Source of the DNA: Bacteroidia bacterium
GTDB taxonomy: Bacteria > Bacteroidota > Bacteroidia > B-17B0 > Aurantibacillaceae
Direction of reading: 5' to 3'
DNA length: 34,160 nt
NCBI GenBank assembly: GCA_025455485.1
Contig: JALOMJ010000026.1
Span: 1 to 34,160 of the forward strand
In this document: positions 7,714-17,607 of the stretch, one piece after another
How positions within the stretch are numbered: the first letter of the stretch is position 1
How the letters are laid out: the number at the start of each line of letters is the position of its first letter
Notes under the pieces: model-generated
Database searches by the model: none
Seen by the model: the letters and a program-made list of their open reading frames with translations, nothing else
Told to the model about the DNA's origin: nothing
Translations under genes and position numbers: made by a program

Positions 7714-8244
7714 ATGTTTTTAAAAGGCCCCCACATTAGCATTCGAGCACTTGAACCTTCTGATGTTGGCTTATTGTATGAATGGGAAAACGACCGGAGT
7801 ATCTGGGCTGTGAGTTACACCCAAATCCCATTCAGCAAATTTATACTTGAGGAATTTATTAATACAGCTTATCAGGATATTTATACCAGCAAACAATTGC
7901 GTTTGATGATACAAGACAATGCCTCAAAAATTACGATTGGTATTTTAGATCTATTTGATTTTGAACCTCAGCATGCACGTTGTGGCATTGGAATTTATGT
8001 GAAGGACGAACATCGGAATAAGGGTGTGGCGATGGAAACAATAGAACTGGCAAAAAAATATTGTTCTGAAACTTTGTTGCTGAAACAAATTTATGTTCAT
8101 GTGAATGCTACCAATGAGGCCAGTTTAGCCTTGTTTCAAAAAGCCGGATTTGAAAAATCGGGTTTAAAAAGGGCATGGACCCGGAGCGCCTTGAATACCT
8201 ATGACGACGTTTGGTTTTTACAGTTTATTTTTCCGTCTGAATAA
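7714..8244 (+). CDS. GNAT family N-acetyltransferase (RimJ/RimL-like)
   Basis: A 176-residue protein with the GNAT fold. It begins with the typical ISIRALEPSDVGLLYEWEND of the RimJ/RimL branch; the acetyl-CoA pyrophosphate loop is KDEHRNKGVA, with Arg101 to Gly104; and the C-terminal VHVNATNEASLALFQKAGFEKSG strand-helix completes the domain. The substrate is unknown: relatives acetylate protein N-termini, amino sugars or polyamines. ATG at 7714 is chosen over an in-frame TTG at 7702, which would overlap dapF. The following cytochrome gene starts inside its last 44 bases, so the two are translationally linked. Confidence 0.88.
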   Translation: MFLKGPHISIRALEPSDVGLLYEWENDRSIWAVSYTQIPFSKFILEEFINTAYQDIYTSKQLRLMIQDNASKITIGILDLFDFEPQHARCGIGIYVKDEHRNKGVAMETIELAKKYCSETLLLKQIYVHVNATNEASLALFQKAGFEKSGLKRAWTRSALNTYDDVWFLQFIFPSE

Positions 8245-10222
8245 GTTTATTCTCATACCATTTGCCTTTCTGTTATTGAGTTTGTCGGGTTGCGACAGCC
8301 CTAAAGTAACAGTTAAAAAAGAAGAACCGCTTTATCTCAACCACTCCGACACGGCAAAATACATTGGTATGTCTGCCTGCAAACTCTGCCATCAGTCGGT
8401 TTACGATTCCTTTGTTCAAACCGGCATGGGTCGTTCCATTGCTTTAGCAAGTCAAAAACATTCGTCTGCAGATTTTTCAAATGCCACCCTGTACGATGAA
8501 TTAAAACAACTTCATTATAAAGCCTACTGGGAAAAGGATTCAATGTACATGCTTGAATACAGGTTACGGAAAAACGATACGGTGCATGCACATTTAAATA
8601 AAGTCAATTACATCATCGGATCGGGCCAGCACACCAACTCACACCTTCTGCTTTCCGGACAGTACCTGAGCCAAATGCCAATGACGTTCTACACACAAAA
8701 GGGAAAATGGGATTTGCCACCGGGTTTTGAAAATGGGGTGAACACCAGATTTTCTAGAAAAATTGGTCTTGAATGCATGAGTTGCCATAATGCGTATCCT
8801 GATTTTGTGTTGGGTTCTGAAAACAAATACACCTCCATTCCGCAAGGTATCGATTGCGAGCGTTGTCACGGACCGGGCAGTATTCATGTGGCTCAGCGTT
8901 TAACAGGCAGTAAAATAGATACCTCTAAATACATTGATTATTCCATTGTAAATCCGTCTAAACTGCCAATTGATTTGCAGTTCGACATTTGCCAACGCTG
9001 CCATTTGCAAGGCAACACTATTCTGAAGGAAGGCAAATCGTTTTATGATTTTAAGCCTGGGAAAAGACTGAGCGACGTAATGACAGTATTTTTACCGAAG
9101 TACCTGGGGGCAGAAGATGAGTTTATTATGGCCTCGCATGCCGACAGACTAAAACAAAGCGCTTGTTTTATCAAATCTGCAGAGCGTGCAGAAGGCACCA
9201 AGGCATTAAAGCCTTATAAAAATGCACTAACGTGCATTACCTGTCATAACCCTCACATTAGTGTTAAATCTACTCGTTCAGAACTATTTGACCGCGCCTG
9301 TATAAACTGCCACGGACCTGCAGAACAGATGGCCGATAGACACAAACAAATTAAACAGTACAAAGCCGAATCGTGTTACACCTGTCACATGCCGGTTTCA
9401 GGGTCAACAGACATACCGCACGTTACGGTGCACGACCATTACATTCGTGTGCCTATAGGTAAAGAGCAAAAGCAAAAAATAAAACGTTTTATTGGTTTGT
9501 ATGCCGTGAACGAGAAAAATCCTGAGCCTCTTGTGAGGGCCAAGGCTTATCTTAATCAATACGATAAGTTTGAACAAAACTCGCTTTTTCTTGACTCGGC
9601 GGCCTACTGGCTGAAGGCTTCCTCAGAAGGCGCATCAAAATTTCAAGTTGAAGTTCAATTATATTTTACTGAGGGGAGCCATTCTAAATTGCTGCAACGT
9701 GTAAAGAGCATTGGAGAACAAAAAATTTATAACGAGTGGTGCGTTGCGTCATCCTATGATAACGCCTGGGCTTGGACCTCTTATAGAATAGCCGAAGCCT
9801 ATAATCAAAGTAATCAGAATACTGCAGCAGTAAAATGGTTTTCGAAGGCAGTGGAATTGGCCCCCTACCAGTTGGATTTTAGAAATAAACTGGGCAACGC
9901 TTTAGCAAACACGAATCAGATGTCTGAGGCGAAAACACAGTTTAAATTTATCCTGAAAGAAAATCCATCGTTTGTTACAGCATATTCTAATCTGGCTTAT
10001 CTGCTTATGCTCGAATCAAAATTTGCTGAAGCAAAAGCATTACTCAGCACCGGATTGAAACTGGATCCGGATAATGAAAATTTGATGTTAAATTTAGTAA
10101 CCTTGCTCTTGCAATCCAACGATAAAGAGGGTGCAAAAGCCTATCTTAAGCGGGTATTGCAACTTAATAAAAACAACCGTTCGGCACAAATGGCCTTAAA
10201 TCGCCTAGAGAGTGAACCATGA
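8201..10222 (+). CDS. Seven-heme cytochrome c lipoprotein with C-terminal TPR repeats
   Basis: A 673-residue protein. The N-terminus is a lipoprotein signal (FAFLLLSLSGC, lipid Cys31). Seven CXXCH heme sites lie at about residues 60, 192, 219, 264, 345, 367 and 392, in a cytochrome c554/DmsE-like arrangement. After a linker, TPR repeats occupy about 535-665 (NTAAVKWFSKAVELAP, ALANTNQMSEAKTQFKFILKENP and following). It should be exported, carry covalent heme and sit at a membrane surface, facing the periplasm or outside. Electron donor and substrate are unknown. It starts within the GNAT gene (44-base overlap) and overlaps mltG by ATGA, so it belongs to the same transcript. An isolated Cys322 lies between heme sites 4 and 5. 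Confidence 0.87.
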   Translation: MTTFGFYSLFFRLNKFILIPFAFLLLSLSGCDSPKVTVKKEEPLYLNHSDTAKYIGMSACKLCHQSVYDSFVQTGMGRSIALASQKHSSADFSNATLYDELKQLHYKAYWEKDSMYMLEYRLRKNDTVHAHLNKVNYIIGSGQHTNSHLLLSGQYLSQMPMTFYTQKGKWDLPPGFENGVNTRFSRKIGLECMSCHNAYPDFVLGSENKYTSIPQGIDCERCHGPGSIHVAQRLTGSKIDTSKYIDYSIVNPSKLPIDLQFDICQRCHLQGNTILKEGKSFYDFKPGKRLSDVMTVFLPKYLGAEDEFIMASHADRLKQSACFIKSAERAEGTKALKPYKNALTCITCHNPHISVKSTRSELFDRACINCHGPAEQMADRHKQIKQYKAESCYTCHMPVSGSTDIPHVTVHDHYIRVPIGKEQKQKIKRFIGLYAVNEKNPEPLVRAKAYLNQYDKFEQNSLFLDSAAYWLKASSEGASKFQVEVQLYFTEGSHSKLLQRVKSIGEQKIYNEWCVASSYDNAWAWTSYRIAEAYNQSNQNTAAVKWFSKAVELAPYQLDFRNKLGNALANTNQMSEAKTQFKFILKENPSFVTAYSNLAYLLMLESKFAEAKALLSTGLKLDPDNENLMLNLVTLLLQSNDKEGAKAYLKRVLQLNKNNRSAQMALNRLESEP

Positions 10223-12357: not shown

Positions 12358-12365
12358 TATATTTG
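12358..12365 (+). promoter_or_regulatory. -7 promoter box for the YfiR-TPR-phosphatase-propeller operon
   Basis: TATATTTG is an exact TAnnTTTG box, followed by TAAG. It lies 24 bases before the CTG at 12389 proposed as the first start of the operon. No good -33 TTG. Confidence 0.45.
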
Positions 12366-12388: not shown

Positions 12389-12919
12389 CTGAAAAAAGGT
12401 TTTACATATTTCCTTGTAATCTTTTGTTTGATTTCGTTTCGATTTCAACAGCCCTCCAGTTATGATACCAATTCCAAACTTAAAGCAGTTTACCTGTACA
12501 ATTTTACTAAGTATTTTGAGTGGCCAGAAAACATGAGGACGGAGAAGTTTATTATTTATGTTGTTGGAAAGAACGATAACCTGGTAACTGAGCTGAAAAC
12601 CCTTGCCGGCAAAAAGAAGGTGGCCAATCAGGATATTGAGATTCGTAACTCAGCCAATTACGATGCCTCGGTATTGCCGAACATTATCTATTTTGGACCT
12701 GATATCATTAAGCCCGTGAGCGCTGCAGCAGCCAAATACAAAAACAAAGGCGCCTTGGTGGTGGCGGAATCAGCCGGAGCCTGTAAATCCGGCGCGAGCA
12801 TAAATTTTGTGACTTTGGAGAGTAAACTAAAGTTTGAATACAATAAATCTGCAGCCATCAAAGCAGGGTTAAAAACAAACGATGACATTAAAGCAATCGC
12901 TGTAAGCAATATAGAATAA
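12389..12919 (+). CDS. YfiR/DUF4154 family periplasmic protein (probable non-ATG start)
   Basis: A protein of about 176 residues matching DUF4154/YfiR: LKAVYLYNFTKYFEWPE at the start of the mature domain, FIIYVVGKND, a central NIIYFGP, GALVVAESAGACKSGASINFV and a KLKFEYNKSAAIKAGLK end. YfiR proteins are periplasmic; in Pseudomonas YfiR represses the membrane diguanylate cyclase YfiN. The first standard start in frame is TTG at 12428, but it would cut the signal peptide in half. The frame is open back to 12347, and CTG AAA AAA at 12389 gives the normal signal peptide KKGFTYFLVIFCLISF. CTG (or ATT at 12383) is therefore the likely start. The TPR gene follows 2 bases after the stop. Confidence 0.75.
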   Translation: MKKGFTYFLVIFCLISFRFQQPSSYDTNSKLKAVYLYNFTKYFEWPENMRTEKFIIYVVGKNDNLVTELKTLAGKKKVANQDIEIRNSANYDASVLPNIIYFGPDIIKPVSAAAAKYKNKGALVVAESAGACKSGASINFVTLESKLKFEYNKSAAIKAGLKTNDDIKAIAVSNIE

Positions 12920-12921
12920 AC

Positions 12922-13854
12922 TTGAGCCACACAAACAACATAGTCAAAATTCTGCTGCTTAGCCTCCTTATAGGTTCTGCCAAGGAACTTAGTGCTCAGT
13001 TTGAAACGCTTGCAAGGGCGCAAACACTGCTAAACACCAAACAGCCCGACAAGATTGACCAGGCAGTTTTGGCTATTGATTCTGCTATTCGTCATAAAGA
13101 TACAAAAGGCGACTTTATCAGCTGGACTACCCGCGCCTTTATTTATTATGAAGTATACAAACGAGCCGATAGATTTAGATTAAATTCTGTACTCCGCGAC
13201 ACCATTATTTCTTCCATACGCACATCCGACAAGCTTAAGCCTGATTCAACCTACCAAGCCTTCAATCAAAAACTTTTGGTTTCTCTGGCCCAAGGTTATT
13301 ATAACATCAACATAAAATTACTGCAAGACTCAGGGGATTCAGAAAAAAGTTTAATTGCCTACAACCGATATAAAAATTTATACAAAGAAATCTATCCAAA
13401 AACAGATTTCAGAGCAAAAGACATAGAATACTATCTGGCGGTTTCCACCGTTTATAACGACAAGTACTCTAAAGACAGCAGTGAAAAAACCATATCAATT
13501 TCCAAAAAAGCTTATGAAAAAGTTCTTGAAATTGACCCTGCTAACCGCTCCGCCAATCTGGGTATTGGATTGCTGAATTACAACGAAGCTACAGTATTAA
13601 TCAGAAAATTAGAATACGAAGTGGAGTTAGATCAAATTGAGGTGGTTCAGGACCATGTAGTGAAATTGGCCAAAGAAAGCGAACAGTATATTCTAAAGGT
13701 ATACAACACCAATCAAAAGGATGCCAAAGCGGTAGAGGCCTTGTATTACGTTTATAGAATGTTGATGGATAAGGTTAAATTCGAAGACTTTAAGAAAAAA
13801 TGCTCTGAATTGGGTATTGTTGTTAATGAGGAAACAACAGCACAGCAAAAGTAA
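12922..13854 (+). CDS. Periplasmic TPR-containing protein, function unknown
   Basis: A 310-residue protein starting with TTG 2 bases after the YfiR-like stop; no ATG or GTG fits, and TTG gives a good signal peptide (IVKILLLSLLIGSAKELSAQ). The mature part is helical with TPR-like units, such as the repeat at about 195-220 (SKKAYEKVLEIDPANRSANLGIG) and a longer helical stretch to the end (EQYILKVYNTNQKDAKAVEALYYVYRML). It probably acts as a periplasmic scaffold. The stop TAA is directly followed by the ATG of the phosphatase gene, so the two are cotranscribed. No enzymatic motif was seen. Confidence 0.75.
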   Translation: MSHTNNIVKILLLSLLIGSAKELSAQFETLARAQTLLNTKQPDKIDQAVLAIDSAIRHKDTKGDFISWTTRAFIYYEVYKRADRFRLNSVLRDTIISSIRTSDKLKPDSTYQAFNQKLLVSLAQGYYNINIKLLQDSGDSEKSLIAYNRYKNLYKEIYPKTDFRAKDIEYYLAVSTVYNDKYSKDSSEKTISISKKAYEKVLEIDPANRSANLGIGLLNYNEATVLIRKLEYEVELDQIEVVQDHVVKLAKESEQYILKVYNTNQKDAKAVEALYYVYRMLMDKVKFEDFKKKCSELGIVVNEETTAQQK

Positions 13855-15636
13855 ATGAAATACAGGTTTACCATAGGGAGAAGAATTGGACTCGGATTTG
13901 CCATTTTGGTATCTTTAACAGTGGTGGCTTTTACACTCACAATTTTTACCATTATTGAAAGTAAAAATAAAACCGAAACCATGGTAGGGCAGGTAACGCC
14001 CAGCGTAACCGAACTGAAAGAACTCAATCTGATGCTTCAGCGGTCCCACACCAACATTTCTAAATGGGTGTATAATAAAAGCATGAACGACATGCAGTTC
14101 AGGGATGCTTTAAGAAACATTATCAGTGTTGAATACCCTCAGAAGCGCAATGTGCTTATTGACTATTCTAAGCATTGGAATGATTCAGAAAAAAATCAAC
14201 TTCAAGTGGTATTTTCTAAAATTGACAGCTTATTCATGAGTTATAAAAATAATATCATGGAACCTTTGAATAGTCTTGAAGATTACAACGATGATGGTGT
14301 TATTTTTCTAGCAGTGAATGATTATGAGGAATCGGAGGCCTACATTAAAACAATCTATTTCAATTTAAGGGAGCTGATAGAATTGAAAAAACAATTTGCC
14401 GAAAACGTAAAAGATGAAATGTTTGAATCGCTTGATTTTCTGAAACGTTCGGTGCAATTTTTAAGTGTTTTGTTAATGCTGGGTGGGGTAATCATAGGTG
14501 TGATGACTACACAATCCATTACCAGGCCGGTTCAGGTGCTTAAAAAAATGCTTCTTTCAATGGGTCTCGGAATCTTACCCGAAGAACGAGTTAGTGCCCG
14601 TAACGACGAAATAGGGGAGATGGGTAACGCTCTTAACGACCTTATCCAATCCATGCATCACACCACAGATTTTGCCAAACAAACCGGTGCCGGCAATTTT
14701 AACGCAACTTACACGCCGTTGAGCAAGGATGATACGCTTGGTCATGCACTGTTGAAGATGCGTGATGATTTGGCTGAAAACGAACGGGTGCTTGAGCAAA
14801 AGGTAATTGAGCGTACGGAAGAAGTTGTTCGTCAAAAGTCAGAAATCGAGCATAAAAACGTTGAGCTGGAAATTTTATACAAACAAGTTACGGATAGCAT
14901 TCACTATGCTAAACGAATTCAAGACGCCATACTTCCCACCAATAACCGAATTAAGGCCTTACTGCCCGATTCTTTTATTCTTTTTAAACCCAAGGATATT
15001 GTTAGCGGCGACTTTTACTGGATTGAACAAAAAGACGATTTGGTTTACTTTGCTGCGGTAGATTGCACCGGACATGGTGTGCCCGGGGCATTCATGAGTT
15101 TGGTAGGGTATAATATTCTCAGAGATATCCTTAAAAATACCCCTGCTTCCCAACCTGCTGAAATTTTGGATAAACTCAGAGACGGTGTAGTAAATGCACT
15201 GCGTTCAGATGAAACCAGCAAACAAGCCAAAGACGGCATGGACATGACCTTGTGTGCCATTAACTACAAAACCATGAGCTTGCAATACGCCGCTGCGTTC
15301 AATCCGCTTTACCTGATTCGCAGAGGAGAGCTGATTTTACATCCTGCCAACAAATTCCCAATTGGCTCTTACATAGGAGAAAAAACCGGATTCGACAATC
15401 ACGAGATACAACTTGAAAAGGGGGATCAAATCTTTATTTGCAGCGATGGCTATGCAGATCAATTTGGCGGCCCAACAGGTAAAAAATTTATGGTCGGCAA
15501 CTTCAGAAAACTGTTACTTAAAATAGCTGAACTTGATTCTCAGCTTCAAAAGGAAGAGCTTAACAAAACCCTGGTATCATGGCAGGGAGAACAGGAACAA
15601 GTGGATGATGTTCTTGTTATCGGCGTTAAGGTCTGA
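13855..15636 (+). CDS. Membrane HAMP-SpoIIE (PP2C-type) serine/threonine phosphatase
   Basis: A 593-residue membrane protein. TM1 is at about 11-33, a helical periplasmic sensor at 34-198 (four-helix-bundle type), TM2 at 200-218, HAMP at about 217-272 (ITRPVQVLKKML, then DEIGEMGNALNDL), a coiled coil at 305-350 and a SpoIIE/PP2C domain at about 375-593. Metal-binding acidic residues are seen in SGDFYW (Asp386), VDCTGHGVPGA (Asp403), GMDMTL (Asp463), CSDGYAD (Asp531) and VDDVLV (Asp584/585), so the catalytic site looks intact. Such phosphatases usually act on phosphorylated STAS anti-anti-sigma proteins or other regulators; none is encoded nearby. Its TGA overlaps the next ATG by one base. Confidence 0.92.
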   Translation: MKYRFTIGRRIGLGFAILVSLTVVAFTLTIFTIIESKNKTETMVGQVTPSVTELKELNLMLQRSHTNISKWVYNKSMNDMQFRDALRNIISVEYPQKRNVLIDYSKHWNDSEKNQLQVVFSKIDSLFMSYKNNIMEPLNSLEDYNDDGVIFLAVNDYEESEAYIKTIYFNLRELIELKKQFAENVKDEMFESLDFLKRSVQFLSVLLMLGGVIIGVMTTQSITRPVQVLKKMLLSMGLGILPEERVSARNDEIGEMGNALNDLIQSMHHTTDFAKQTGAGNFNATYTPLSKDDTLGHALLKMRDDLAENERVLEQKVIERTEEVVRQKSEIEHKNVELEILYKQVTDSIHYAKRIQDAILPTNNRIKALLPDSFILFKPKDIVSGDFYWIEQKDDLVYFAAVDCTGHGVPGAFMSLVGYNILRDILKNTPASQPAEILDKLRDGVVNALRSDETSKQAKDGMDMTLCAINYKTMSLQYAAAFNPLYLIRRGELILHPANKFPIGSYIGEKTGFDNHEIQLEKGDQIFICSDGYADQFGGPTGKKFMVGNFRKLLLKIAELDSQLQKEELNKTLVSWQGEQEQVDDVLVIGVKV

Positions 15637-17180
15637 TGTTCCTTCCTCATAAAATAAAGCGCTGTTTTTTTGCATTTCTGTTGTTGGTTTCAAGTGTAAG
15701 GCCTTGGAAATCGCAAACCGGAAATGAACAGGTTTCAACAGATACTTTAACCTATGGCGTTTCTGCTACTTCTGTGAATGCAATTCACGCAACCGCCCTC
15801 CGATTCGAATATCCGATTCGCGATTATATTTTTGACACAATCAGTAATTTATTTTTTGTTTCAGGAAAACAACAGGGCGATTTATCCGATCAGGTGCTGG
15901 TAAAAGGTTTTTTTGCAGCAGTAAATCAATCCAATAAAATTAAATGGATTGTGGAATCATCTTTGTATGACCTGGAATTTGGGGGCGGTCAGCTGATTGT
16001 AACGAATGAGGAAAGAAGTGTGAAGTTTAACAAACAGGCAGGTTACGATGAACTTAGGCTTTCCGGAAGAGTGGCCCTTATCTTAAATAATGCCGGATTA
16101 GCATTTGTTTACAAAAGCAATAGCAAAGAAGAATTAGAATGTGTGGACCTAAAAACCGGTTCGCGGATTTGGACCACCATATTGCCTGGCGGGGAGGACT
16201 GGGTGGACTATCAACAAATAAATGATTCACTGCTGTTTGTTGCCGCTTCGGGTCTTCATGCCATTCACCTGAAAAAAGGTTTGCTTTGGTCAATTCCCTT
16301 CTCCACAGCAGTTAGCACAGCAAAGGCCTTAACTTATTCTTTGGCCAAACACAGTACCATACAAAACATAAGCCGCGTGATACATACGGATATTGAAGAG
16401 AATTTGGTCACGCAATTAGCATCCAACATTCTGGTAAATAATGGCACTGTGATTTTGGCGTCAAAGGACCGTTGTATGGCTTTCAATTTTCAGGGTCAGG
16501 AATTATGGCATCTTGATCTGAAGAATTATCCCATTTCAAAAATGCTGCTCACCAAAACAGAAACAAACATTTTGCTGGTGAATTTTGGATTGGCCATGCA
16601 TAGCGACCGTTTTGTGAGCTGGGGCAAACCCTTCATTCTTGAGTTGGACCCAAGCAACGGAAGTATTTTACACCAACATGATCTGGGTAAAATTAACAAC
16701 CTGGCTGATTTTGTTCAAAGCGGTAAAGCATTTGTATTCGCAGGCAGAGAAGAGATTTTAAGTGTTGCAACCGGAGCTAATCAATTGCAATCCATGCTGA
16801 CCATTAACCCGGGTACCTATGGAAGGTTTCTTGAATTTGTTGATGGCAACGAACATTATACGTTCAAAGAAGGCTATTGCGTCCCCTTAAATTTTATTAA
16901 CGGTAACCTCATTTATTTTAAAACGGATAACAATAAAATTTATGGCGTGGATGGCGATTATATTCAATATGAATACCATTTCACAGAACTTTTTCGATTG
17001 CTCGGCACCTTCGACAACAAAAAACTGTTGACCAACGGTAAAAAAACGATTTTAATTAGCGAAAATTATGAACTCCTCTATGAGTTGTTTACGGCTGCTC
17101 CTGTTTTGATTTCTAAAGAGAAAATTTATTTTATTGAGGAAAACCGTGTAGTAATTGTTGGTAAGGAGAACCTTCGTTAA
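15636..17180 (+). CDS. Secreted PQQ-like beta-propeller protein
   Basis: A 514-residue protein with a signal peptide (KRCFFAFLLLVSSVRPWKSQ). The mature part has repeated blades of the form strand-aromatic-D-x-x-T/N-G: CVDLKTGSRIWTTILPG, MAFNFQGQELWHLDLKN, ILELDPSNGSILHQHDLGK, all typical of PQQ-like or BamB-type propellers. No PQQ-enzyme motifs or calcium site were recognised, so a binding or scaffold role is more likely than catalysis. It is last in the four-gene operon and overlaps the phosphatase stop by one base (TGATG). Only one base separates it from the convergent thioesterase gene, leaving no room for a separate terminator. Confidence 0.75.
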   Translation: MFLPHKIKRCFFAFLLLVSSVRPWKSQTGNEQVSTDTLTYGVSATSVNAIHATALRFEYPIRDYIFDTISNLFFVSGKQQGDLSDQVLVKGFFAAVNQSNKIKWIVESSLYDLEFGGGQLIVTNEERSVKFNKQAGYDELRLSGRVALILNNAGLAFVYKSNSKEELECVDLKTGSRIWTTILPGGEDWVDYQQINDSLLFVAASGLHAIHLKKGLLWSIPFSTAVSTAKALTYSLAKHSTIQNISRVIHTDIEENLVTQLASNILVNNGTVILASKDRCMAFNFQGQELWHLDLKNYPISKMLLTKTETNILLVNFGLAMHSDRFVSWGKPFILELDPSNGSILHQHDLGKINNLADFVQSGKAFVFAGREEILSVATGANQLQSMLTINPGTYGRFLEFVDGNEHYTFKEGYCVPLNFINGNLIYFKTDNNKIYGVDGDYIQYEYHFTELFRLLGTFDNKKLLTNGKKTILISENYELLYELFTAAPVLISKEKIYFIEENRVVIVGKENLR

Positions 17181-17181
17181 G

Positions 17182-17607
17182 TTATGATTCGAAAGCATTA
17201 ATGCGTTCTCTCCATACAGCAGGAATTTCTATGCTTTGGCTGTTCACATAATCCATTGCAACCAACACCCCTGAAACCATGGCGCACTCGGTCCATTGAC
17301 CGTTATTTTTTTTCAGGATTTCGTTTTTGAGGGAAAGACTTTTACTGCCCAAATAGGTAACCTTGGTAAAACAGTACACTTCATCATTTAAATGTATGGG
17401 TGTGAAATAATCAATTTCACTATGGGCCAGAACAAAGCCTTGTTTATCCCAGTCAATCACTTCACCAAGCACCAGGGAAAAATAGTTTACCCGGCCAAGT
17501 TCACAATAACTCATGTAACAGGCATTGTTAACATGATTAAGCCGGTCGATATCCACAAAGCGAACTTGTATGTTCGTCATGTGTTTGTAATCTTTAAATT
17601 TAATCAT
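17182..17607 (-). CDS. Acyl-CoA thioesterase, 4HBT/YbgC-like
   Basis: A 141-residue hotdog-fold protein. RFVDIDRLNHVNNACYMSYCELGR is the characteristic 4HBT helix start, with an acidic residue (Asp) and His-Val-Asn-Asn as in YbgC/FadM thioesterases; the SEIDYFTPIHLNDEVY strand is also typical. The family hydrolyses fatty acyl-CoA or acyl-ACP in the cytoplasm. Its ATG overlaps the end of the polyprenyl synthase gene by four bases (17604-17607), so the two are translationally coupled and probably belong to a three-gene unit with rfbA. The substrate cannot be read from sequence. Confidence 0.87.
   Translation of the reverse strand: MIKFKDYKHMTNIQVRFVDIDRLNHVNNACYMSYCELGRVNYFSLVLGEVIDWDKQGFVLAHSEIDYFTPIHLNDEVYCFTKVTYLGSKSLSLKNEILKKNNGQWTECAMVSGVLVAMDYVNSQSIEIPAVWRERINAFES

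Follow-up and report, generated by a model that had tools for sequence, protein, structure and literature searches.

What does a YfiR-like protein control in a bacterium whose genome yields no match to the GGDEF domain of cyclic di-GMP (c-di-GMP) cyclases? In proteobacteria, YfiR is known to repress such a cyclase, and the question is raised by a locus on a stretch of 34,160 nucleotides (nt; GenBank JALOMJ010000026.1, hereafter the window), which is contig C27 of a draft genome of the class Bacteroidia (3.05 Mb, 81.7% complete, 234 contigs). Between positions 12389 and 17180, four open reading frames (ORFs) on the plus strand encode a YfiR-like protein, a tetratricopeptide repeat (TPR) protein, a membrane phosphatase with HAMP and SpoIIE/PP2C domains, and a beta-propeller. 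The initial annotation had described them as a cassette packed with gaps of 2, 0 and -1 nt, and all four ORFs are located there with this spacing. Here we report that the first three genes form a conserved core and propose, with a probability of about two in three, that the YfiR-like and TPR proteins gate the transmembrane phosphatase, which would feed a SiaC- or STAS-type phospho-switch.

A conserved YfiR-TPR-phosphatase triad

We analyzed the arrangement in 87 genomes of the window's order, with 51 loci fetched around candidate orthologues. The YfiR gene is followed by the TPR gene in 51/51 of these loci, and the phosphatase gene comes next wherever the contig continues. The three genes hold their order, strand and tight spacing, with gaps mostly between -50 and 30 nt. 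At the class level, 395 Bacteroidia genomes were scanned with TPR-protein and phosphatase profiles, and the two genes are adjacent in 110 of them, representing 23 families (a hand count from tables). We inspected 40 regions from 39 genomes having this adjacent pair; the YfiR gene lies directly upstream in 38 of the 39, four of these 38 genes being visible by six-frame search only, as the ORF caller had missed them. In the exception, genome G093, the YfiR-TPR pair is on one contig and the phosphatase gene on another. The distance between the TPR and phosphatase genes reaches about 210 nt outside the order. Contigs from Flavobacteriales NORP67, Salibacteraceae JJ.5 and Crocinitomicaceae MED692 are among those carrying the triad. 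A scan of named genomes yielded 28 loci only, its single pattern being unspecific.

Thus, the conserved core consists of the YfiR, TPR and phosphatase genes, in an arrangement that is far beyond chance. The expectation that the gene order would recur widely, and not be specific to this genome, is borne out. The fourth member of the proposed cassette fared differently: in a comparison set of 103 loci (52 from the order and 51 others), a propeller homologue is present in 23/52 order loci and in 0/51 of the others. As the propeller is restricted to part of the window's order, we consider it a later addition, and a four-gene core was rejected.

YfiR accompanies the sensor, and the output varies

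A second line of evidence comes from the other YfiR-like genes. This genome has three genes for DUF4154, the YfiR domain, and all of them lie beside, or are fused to, a SpoIIE phosphatase gene. The genome has ten SpoIIE matches, and we estimate that a random gene has a chance of about 2% of lying within a few kb of one, so that three of three would be unlikely by chance. The DUF4154 gene on contig C30 encodes a single 591-residue chain, in which a signal peptide or transmembrane (TM) segment is followed by the YfiR domain (residues 34-173), a coiled coil, a TM segment (about 284-314) and PP2C (393-591); neither HAMP nor a four-helix bundle is found in this fusion. On contig C102, the DUF4154 gene is divergent from a gene whose product, a PP2C protein of 499 residues, has a sensor matching the sensor profile of the window's phosphatase but no HAMP match. 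About a dozen relatives also have YfiR-PP2C fusions, some of which contain two YfiR domains. The proposed link of the YfiR-like protein to a HAMP-SpoIIE phosphatase, in place of a GGDEF cyclase, is supported. We also observed that in loci L091, L092 and L093 (genomes G040, G035 and G023) two YfiR domains, a TM segment and SpoIIE share one chain of 833-859 amino acids (aa).

The sensor of the triad phosphatase, a predicted periplasmic four-helix bundle, is also found with other outputs. In Marivirga atlantica and on Bacteroidales contigs, it is joined to HAMP-GAF-PAS, with a YfiR gene directly upstream. Such loci (L158, L161, L163, L164, L167 and L185) have no recognisable enzyme output, and the TPR gene is missing from them. 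In Niastella populi the same sensor occurs in a hybrid histidine kinase, and no YfiR gene was recognised on its short contig. A phylum-wide scan with the sensor profile gave matches in 6/395 genomes only, with one weak match outside the class. Since YfiR also adjoins the sensor when this carries HAMP-GAF-PAS, YfiR goes with the sensor while the output domain varies.

Features of the triad proteins and their surroundings

The first gene (12389..12919, plus strand; CTG start) encodes a periplasmic protein of 176 aa with a signal peptide. It matches DUF4154 (Pfam PF13689) with E=5.6e-27, and its profile aligns with E. coli YfiR in hhalign (probability 96, E=4e-9) and retrieves exclusively YfiR chains from the PDB (E~0.005). 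It scores 20.6 bits on the NCBI YfiR equivalog model, against a cut-off of 85. YfiR of P. aeruginosa contains two cysteine pairs, Cys71-Cys110 and Cys145-Cys152, one required for folding and the other redox-responsive (PMC4655355). These pairs are absent from the YfiR-like proteins of the triad: in 30/39 of the members aligned, the YfiR domain contains at most one cysteine, and the window protein has 1.

The start of this gene is unusual. Ahead of the signal peptide the window offers no usable ATG, GTG or TTG, and a CTG lies exactly 24 codons ahead of the mature YfiR domain, likewise in most relatives of the genus. A CTG is present within the start region in 30/52 order loci; 19/52 are without any standard start codon, three of the loci having ATA or ATT alone, and sister groups start the gene with TTG. 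This conserved non-standard start of the first operon gene may restrict YfiR translation. About 31 nt upstream of the first codon, at 12358..12365 on the plus strand, the sequence TATATTTG matches TAnnTTTG, the -7 promoter element of Bacteroidota, and such a box lies 5' of the YfiR gene in 51/52 order loci. On the plus strand, no terminator-like site was found within the cassette, the first being at 17289.

The second gene (12922..13854, plus strand; TTG start) encodes a protein of 310 aa with a signal peptide and an A-Q cleavage site. Pfam TPR models match it weakly in the window and match 43/84 of its orthologues. Its AlphaFold2 model is an all-helical repeat of 12 helices (pLDDT, the model's confidence score, 94), and the structures in the PDB that match it are TPR superhelices. 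The model, these structures and the Pfam matches in about half of the orthologues together support the assignment as a periplasmic TPR protein.

The membrane phosphatase (13855..15636, plus strand; 593 aa) consists of TM1 (6-37), a periplasmic part (about 37-198), TM2 (about 195-223) and, on the cytosolic side, HAMP (219-268), a coiled coil and SpoIIE/PP2C (about 394-592). SpoIIE is matched with E=4.6e-20 and HAMP with E=1.1e-5, just above its cut-off. The periplasmic part, of about 160 residues, is entirely helical in the AlphaFold2 model, and among 43 relatives 17 match 4HB_MCP_1 and 6 match TarH; the model thus presents the sensor as a periplasmic four-helix bundle. D386, D403, D460, D463, D531, D584 and D585 are invariant across 81 aligned orthologues and, as these include the metal-site aspartates, the PP2C domain should be active. 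The closest solved structure to the catalytic domain is SiaA-PP2C (6k4e; TM-score 0.88, 31% identity; profile E=7e-63). On the NCBI SiaA model (NF038263) the phosphatase scores 203 bits over HAMP-PP2C, against a cut-off of 700. The enzyme is therefore SiaA-like but not SiaA.

The fourth gene (15636..17180, plus strand) encodes the accessory, clade-specific protein of 514 aa, a secreted PQQ/BamB-like beta-propeller (PQQ_2 E=5.5e-5, below the cut-off). Elsewhere in the window, the product of a gene at 8201-10222 has multihaem cytochrome domains and, after them, TPR repeats at its C-terminus; this gene sits just upstream of an MltG-like gene and an ABC ATPase gene.

A further neighbour appears at related loci. 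A divergent gene for an extracytoplasmic function (ECF) sigma factor, usually followed by one for a single-TM protein of about 400 residues, is present in 43/52 order loci and in 48/103 overall, and is missing at the window's own locus. The pair shares its upstream region with the triad (for example L038:7100-8918) and also occurs in some other families (L114, L115, L117 and L154). The single-TM protein is a possible anti-sigma factor, and the pair fits an envelope-stress setting.

Candidate targets of the phosphatase

In P. aeruginosa, SiaA dephosphorylates SiaC at Thr68, opposing the kinase SiaB (PMC7647112). The genome studied here has six matches to the SiaC family and five to the SiaB family, several beside other SpoIIE genes, and also encodes a single RsbW-like kinase and a single STAS protein. 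SiaB and SiaC genes next to SpoIIE genes, in a genome without GGDEF, point to several parallel SiaABC-like switches. On contigs C187, C49 and C42 of genome G000 (L209, L210 and L211), for instance, SiaB- and SiaC-family genes were observed beside large SpoIIE proteins, one of which is a two-component-regulator-propeller/Y_Y_Y-SpoIIE protein of 1069 aa.

The triad shares with SiaABCD the membrane HAMP-PP2C phosphatase, along with the presence of SiaB and SiaC families in the genome. It differs in that its operon lacks siaB, siaC and siaD and contains YfiR and TPR genes instead, in the absence of GGDEF from the genome and in the low score on the SiaA model. The sigma-regulating phosphatases of the RsbU/SpoIIE type belong to the same PP2C subfamily and have the conserved metal-site aspartates, whereas the triad phosphatase has a periplasmic sensor, YfiR and TPR neighbours and no linked RsbW or STAS gene. 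A SiaC- or STAS-type protein is a plausible target. A linked SiaC target was rejected: a SiaC gene is present at only two triad loci (L115 and L125), where it lies kilobases from the triad and outside the operon.

A model for the triad and its alternatives

Our model suggests that the YfiR-like and TPR proteins, once exported, act in the periplasm on the four-helix bundle of the phosphatase. A change in their binding would travel along TM2, HAMP and the coiled coil and switch the cytosolic PP2C domain; we assume this route from the way in which HAMP proteins and YfiN are organised. PP2C would then dephosphorylate a small SiaC- or STAS-type phosphoprotein, with the opposing SiaB- or RsbW-type kinase presumably encoded at another site in the genome. 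The TPR protein may substitute for YfiB, either sensing the envelope or sequestering YfiR. The triad is very probably a switch that signals the condition of the envelope, and we infer that YfiR serves here as a control subunit in the periplasm that is no longer coupled to c-di-GMP.

The sign of this control is where the strongest alternative lies. By analogy with YfiN, YfiR would more probably repress the phosphatase until an envelope signal releases it, and the only characterised YfiR proteins are repressors, with no ligand known. The YfiR-like protein might instead be a co-activator or a ligand-binding co-receptor that activates the phosphatase when loaded. A published Dali comparison matches YfiR with the ABC domain found in a solute-binding protein (PMC4655355), the signal must differ given that the Pseudomonas cysteine pairs are missing, and the fusion proteins carry their YfiR domain in the sensor position. 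Although we regard this alternative as the less probable, it is a serious rival to repression.

A further alternative is that the operon serves the biogenesis or maintenance of the envelope, with structural or chaperone-like YfiR and TPR proteins and a phosphatase that is merely co-regulated and perceives its own ligand through the bundle. Bundles of the Tar/4HB_MCP type, the kind matched by the 17 relatives above, commonly bind ligands themselves, and TPR proteins are frequently scaffolds. Yet YfiR and PP2C share one chain in this genome and in others, and YfiR also adjoins the same sensor with a GAF-PAS output, that is, it tracks the sensor and not envelope genes. We therefore consider this explanation unlikely.

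The triad resembles YfiBNR (TpbB) of P. aeruginosa and YfiR-DgcN-YfiB of E. coli. In each, a DUF4154 gene lies directly upstream of the gene for a two-TM HAMP protein, and one further exported protein is encoded in the operon. There are also differences: the output is PP2C instead of GGDEF, and the third protein is the TPR protein instead of the OmpA-like lipoprotein YfiB, none of the cassette genes encoding a YfiB and the TPR gene being in that place. The periplasmic domain of YfiN has been described as PAS- or LapD-like (PMC3838380), in contrast to the four-helix bundle predicted here; hhalign of the sensor profile against E. coli YfiN found no detectable similarity (probability 0.6), and homology of the two sensors was rejected as unsupported. 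The proposal that the cassette is YfiBNR with a swapped partner holds, consequently, for the replacement of GGDEF by PP2C, and fails for the sensor fold, for YfiB and for the cysteine pairs. Across the order, DUF4154 is present in 83/87 genomes, while GGDEF is represented by a single fragment that contains an internal stop. With GGDEF practically missing from the order, a cyclase of the YfiN type cannot be what YfiR serves there. A strict YfiBNR system acting through c-di-GMP has the DUF4154 homology and the HAMP partner on its side, but was rejected as extremely improbable given the absence of GGDEF, the PP2C output, the different sensor and the lack of YfiB.

Several points weigh against the gating model that we favour. 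No SiaB, SiaC, STAS or kinase gene is present in the operon, and the choice of target is a guess. Genomes of the order hold many SpoIIE genes, so that single neighbourhoods could be due to chance, although the conserved triad could not. Most of the co-divergence among the proteins also has another source. In a mirror-tree comparison of pairwise distances over 56 triads, the YfiR distances correlate with those of the periplasmic domain (r 0.76), and the catalytic with the periplasmic domain at 0.45. In the control set of 46 loci with the divergent ECF sigma factor, the sigma distances correlate at 0.89 with YfiR and at 0.86 with the periplasmic domain, while the YfiR-periplasmic value is 0.86. 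Because an unrelated neighbour correlates equally well, most of the co-divergence reflects shared phylogeny, and we rejected the mirror-tree result as strong proof of interaction.

Once the sigma and PP2C distances are removed, a residual signal is left between YfiR and the periplasmic domain (0.40; 0.16-0.57), between the TPR protein and the periplasmic domain (0.52; 0.16-0.70) and between YfiR and the TPR protein (0.35; 0.05-0.54), with a value of 0.06 for YfiR and HAMP. This residual co-divergence lends modest support to an association of the YfiR-like protein, the TPR protein and the periplasmic domain.

Implications

In the open-access literature that we searched, we found no work linking YfiR with SpoIIE and a single paper that names DUF4154, which is not proof of absence; within that literature the YfiR-TPR-phosphatase module, a conserved unit of at least 22 Bacteroidia families, is undescribed, and it builds on known YfiR and SiaA-type signalling. 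A wider reading, to which we give even odds, is that YfiR proteins are general, exchangeable periplasmic control subunits for membrane signalling proteins. In c-di-GMP-free Bacteroidota they would gate PP2C, and probably GAF-PAS or kinase outputs, driving SiaC/STAS switches from the envelope, and YfiBNR would be one special case. The conserved operon and the single-chain fusions make the interaction directly testable. If the proposal is true, the many SpoIIE phosphatases of Bacteroidota, most of them unassigned, would gain a first concrete input, and the ancestral or general role of the YfiR family would be periplasmic signal input, not c-di-GMP control.

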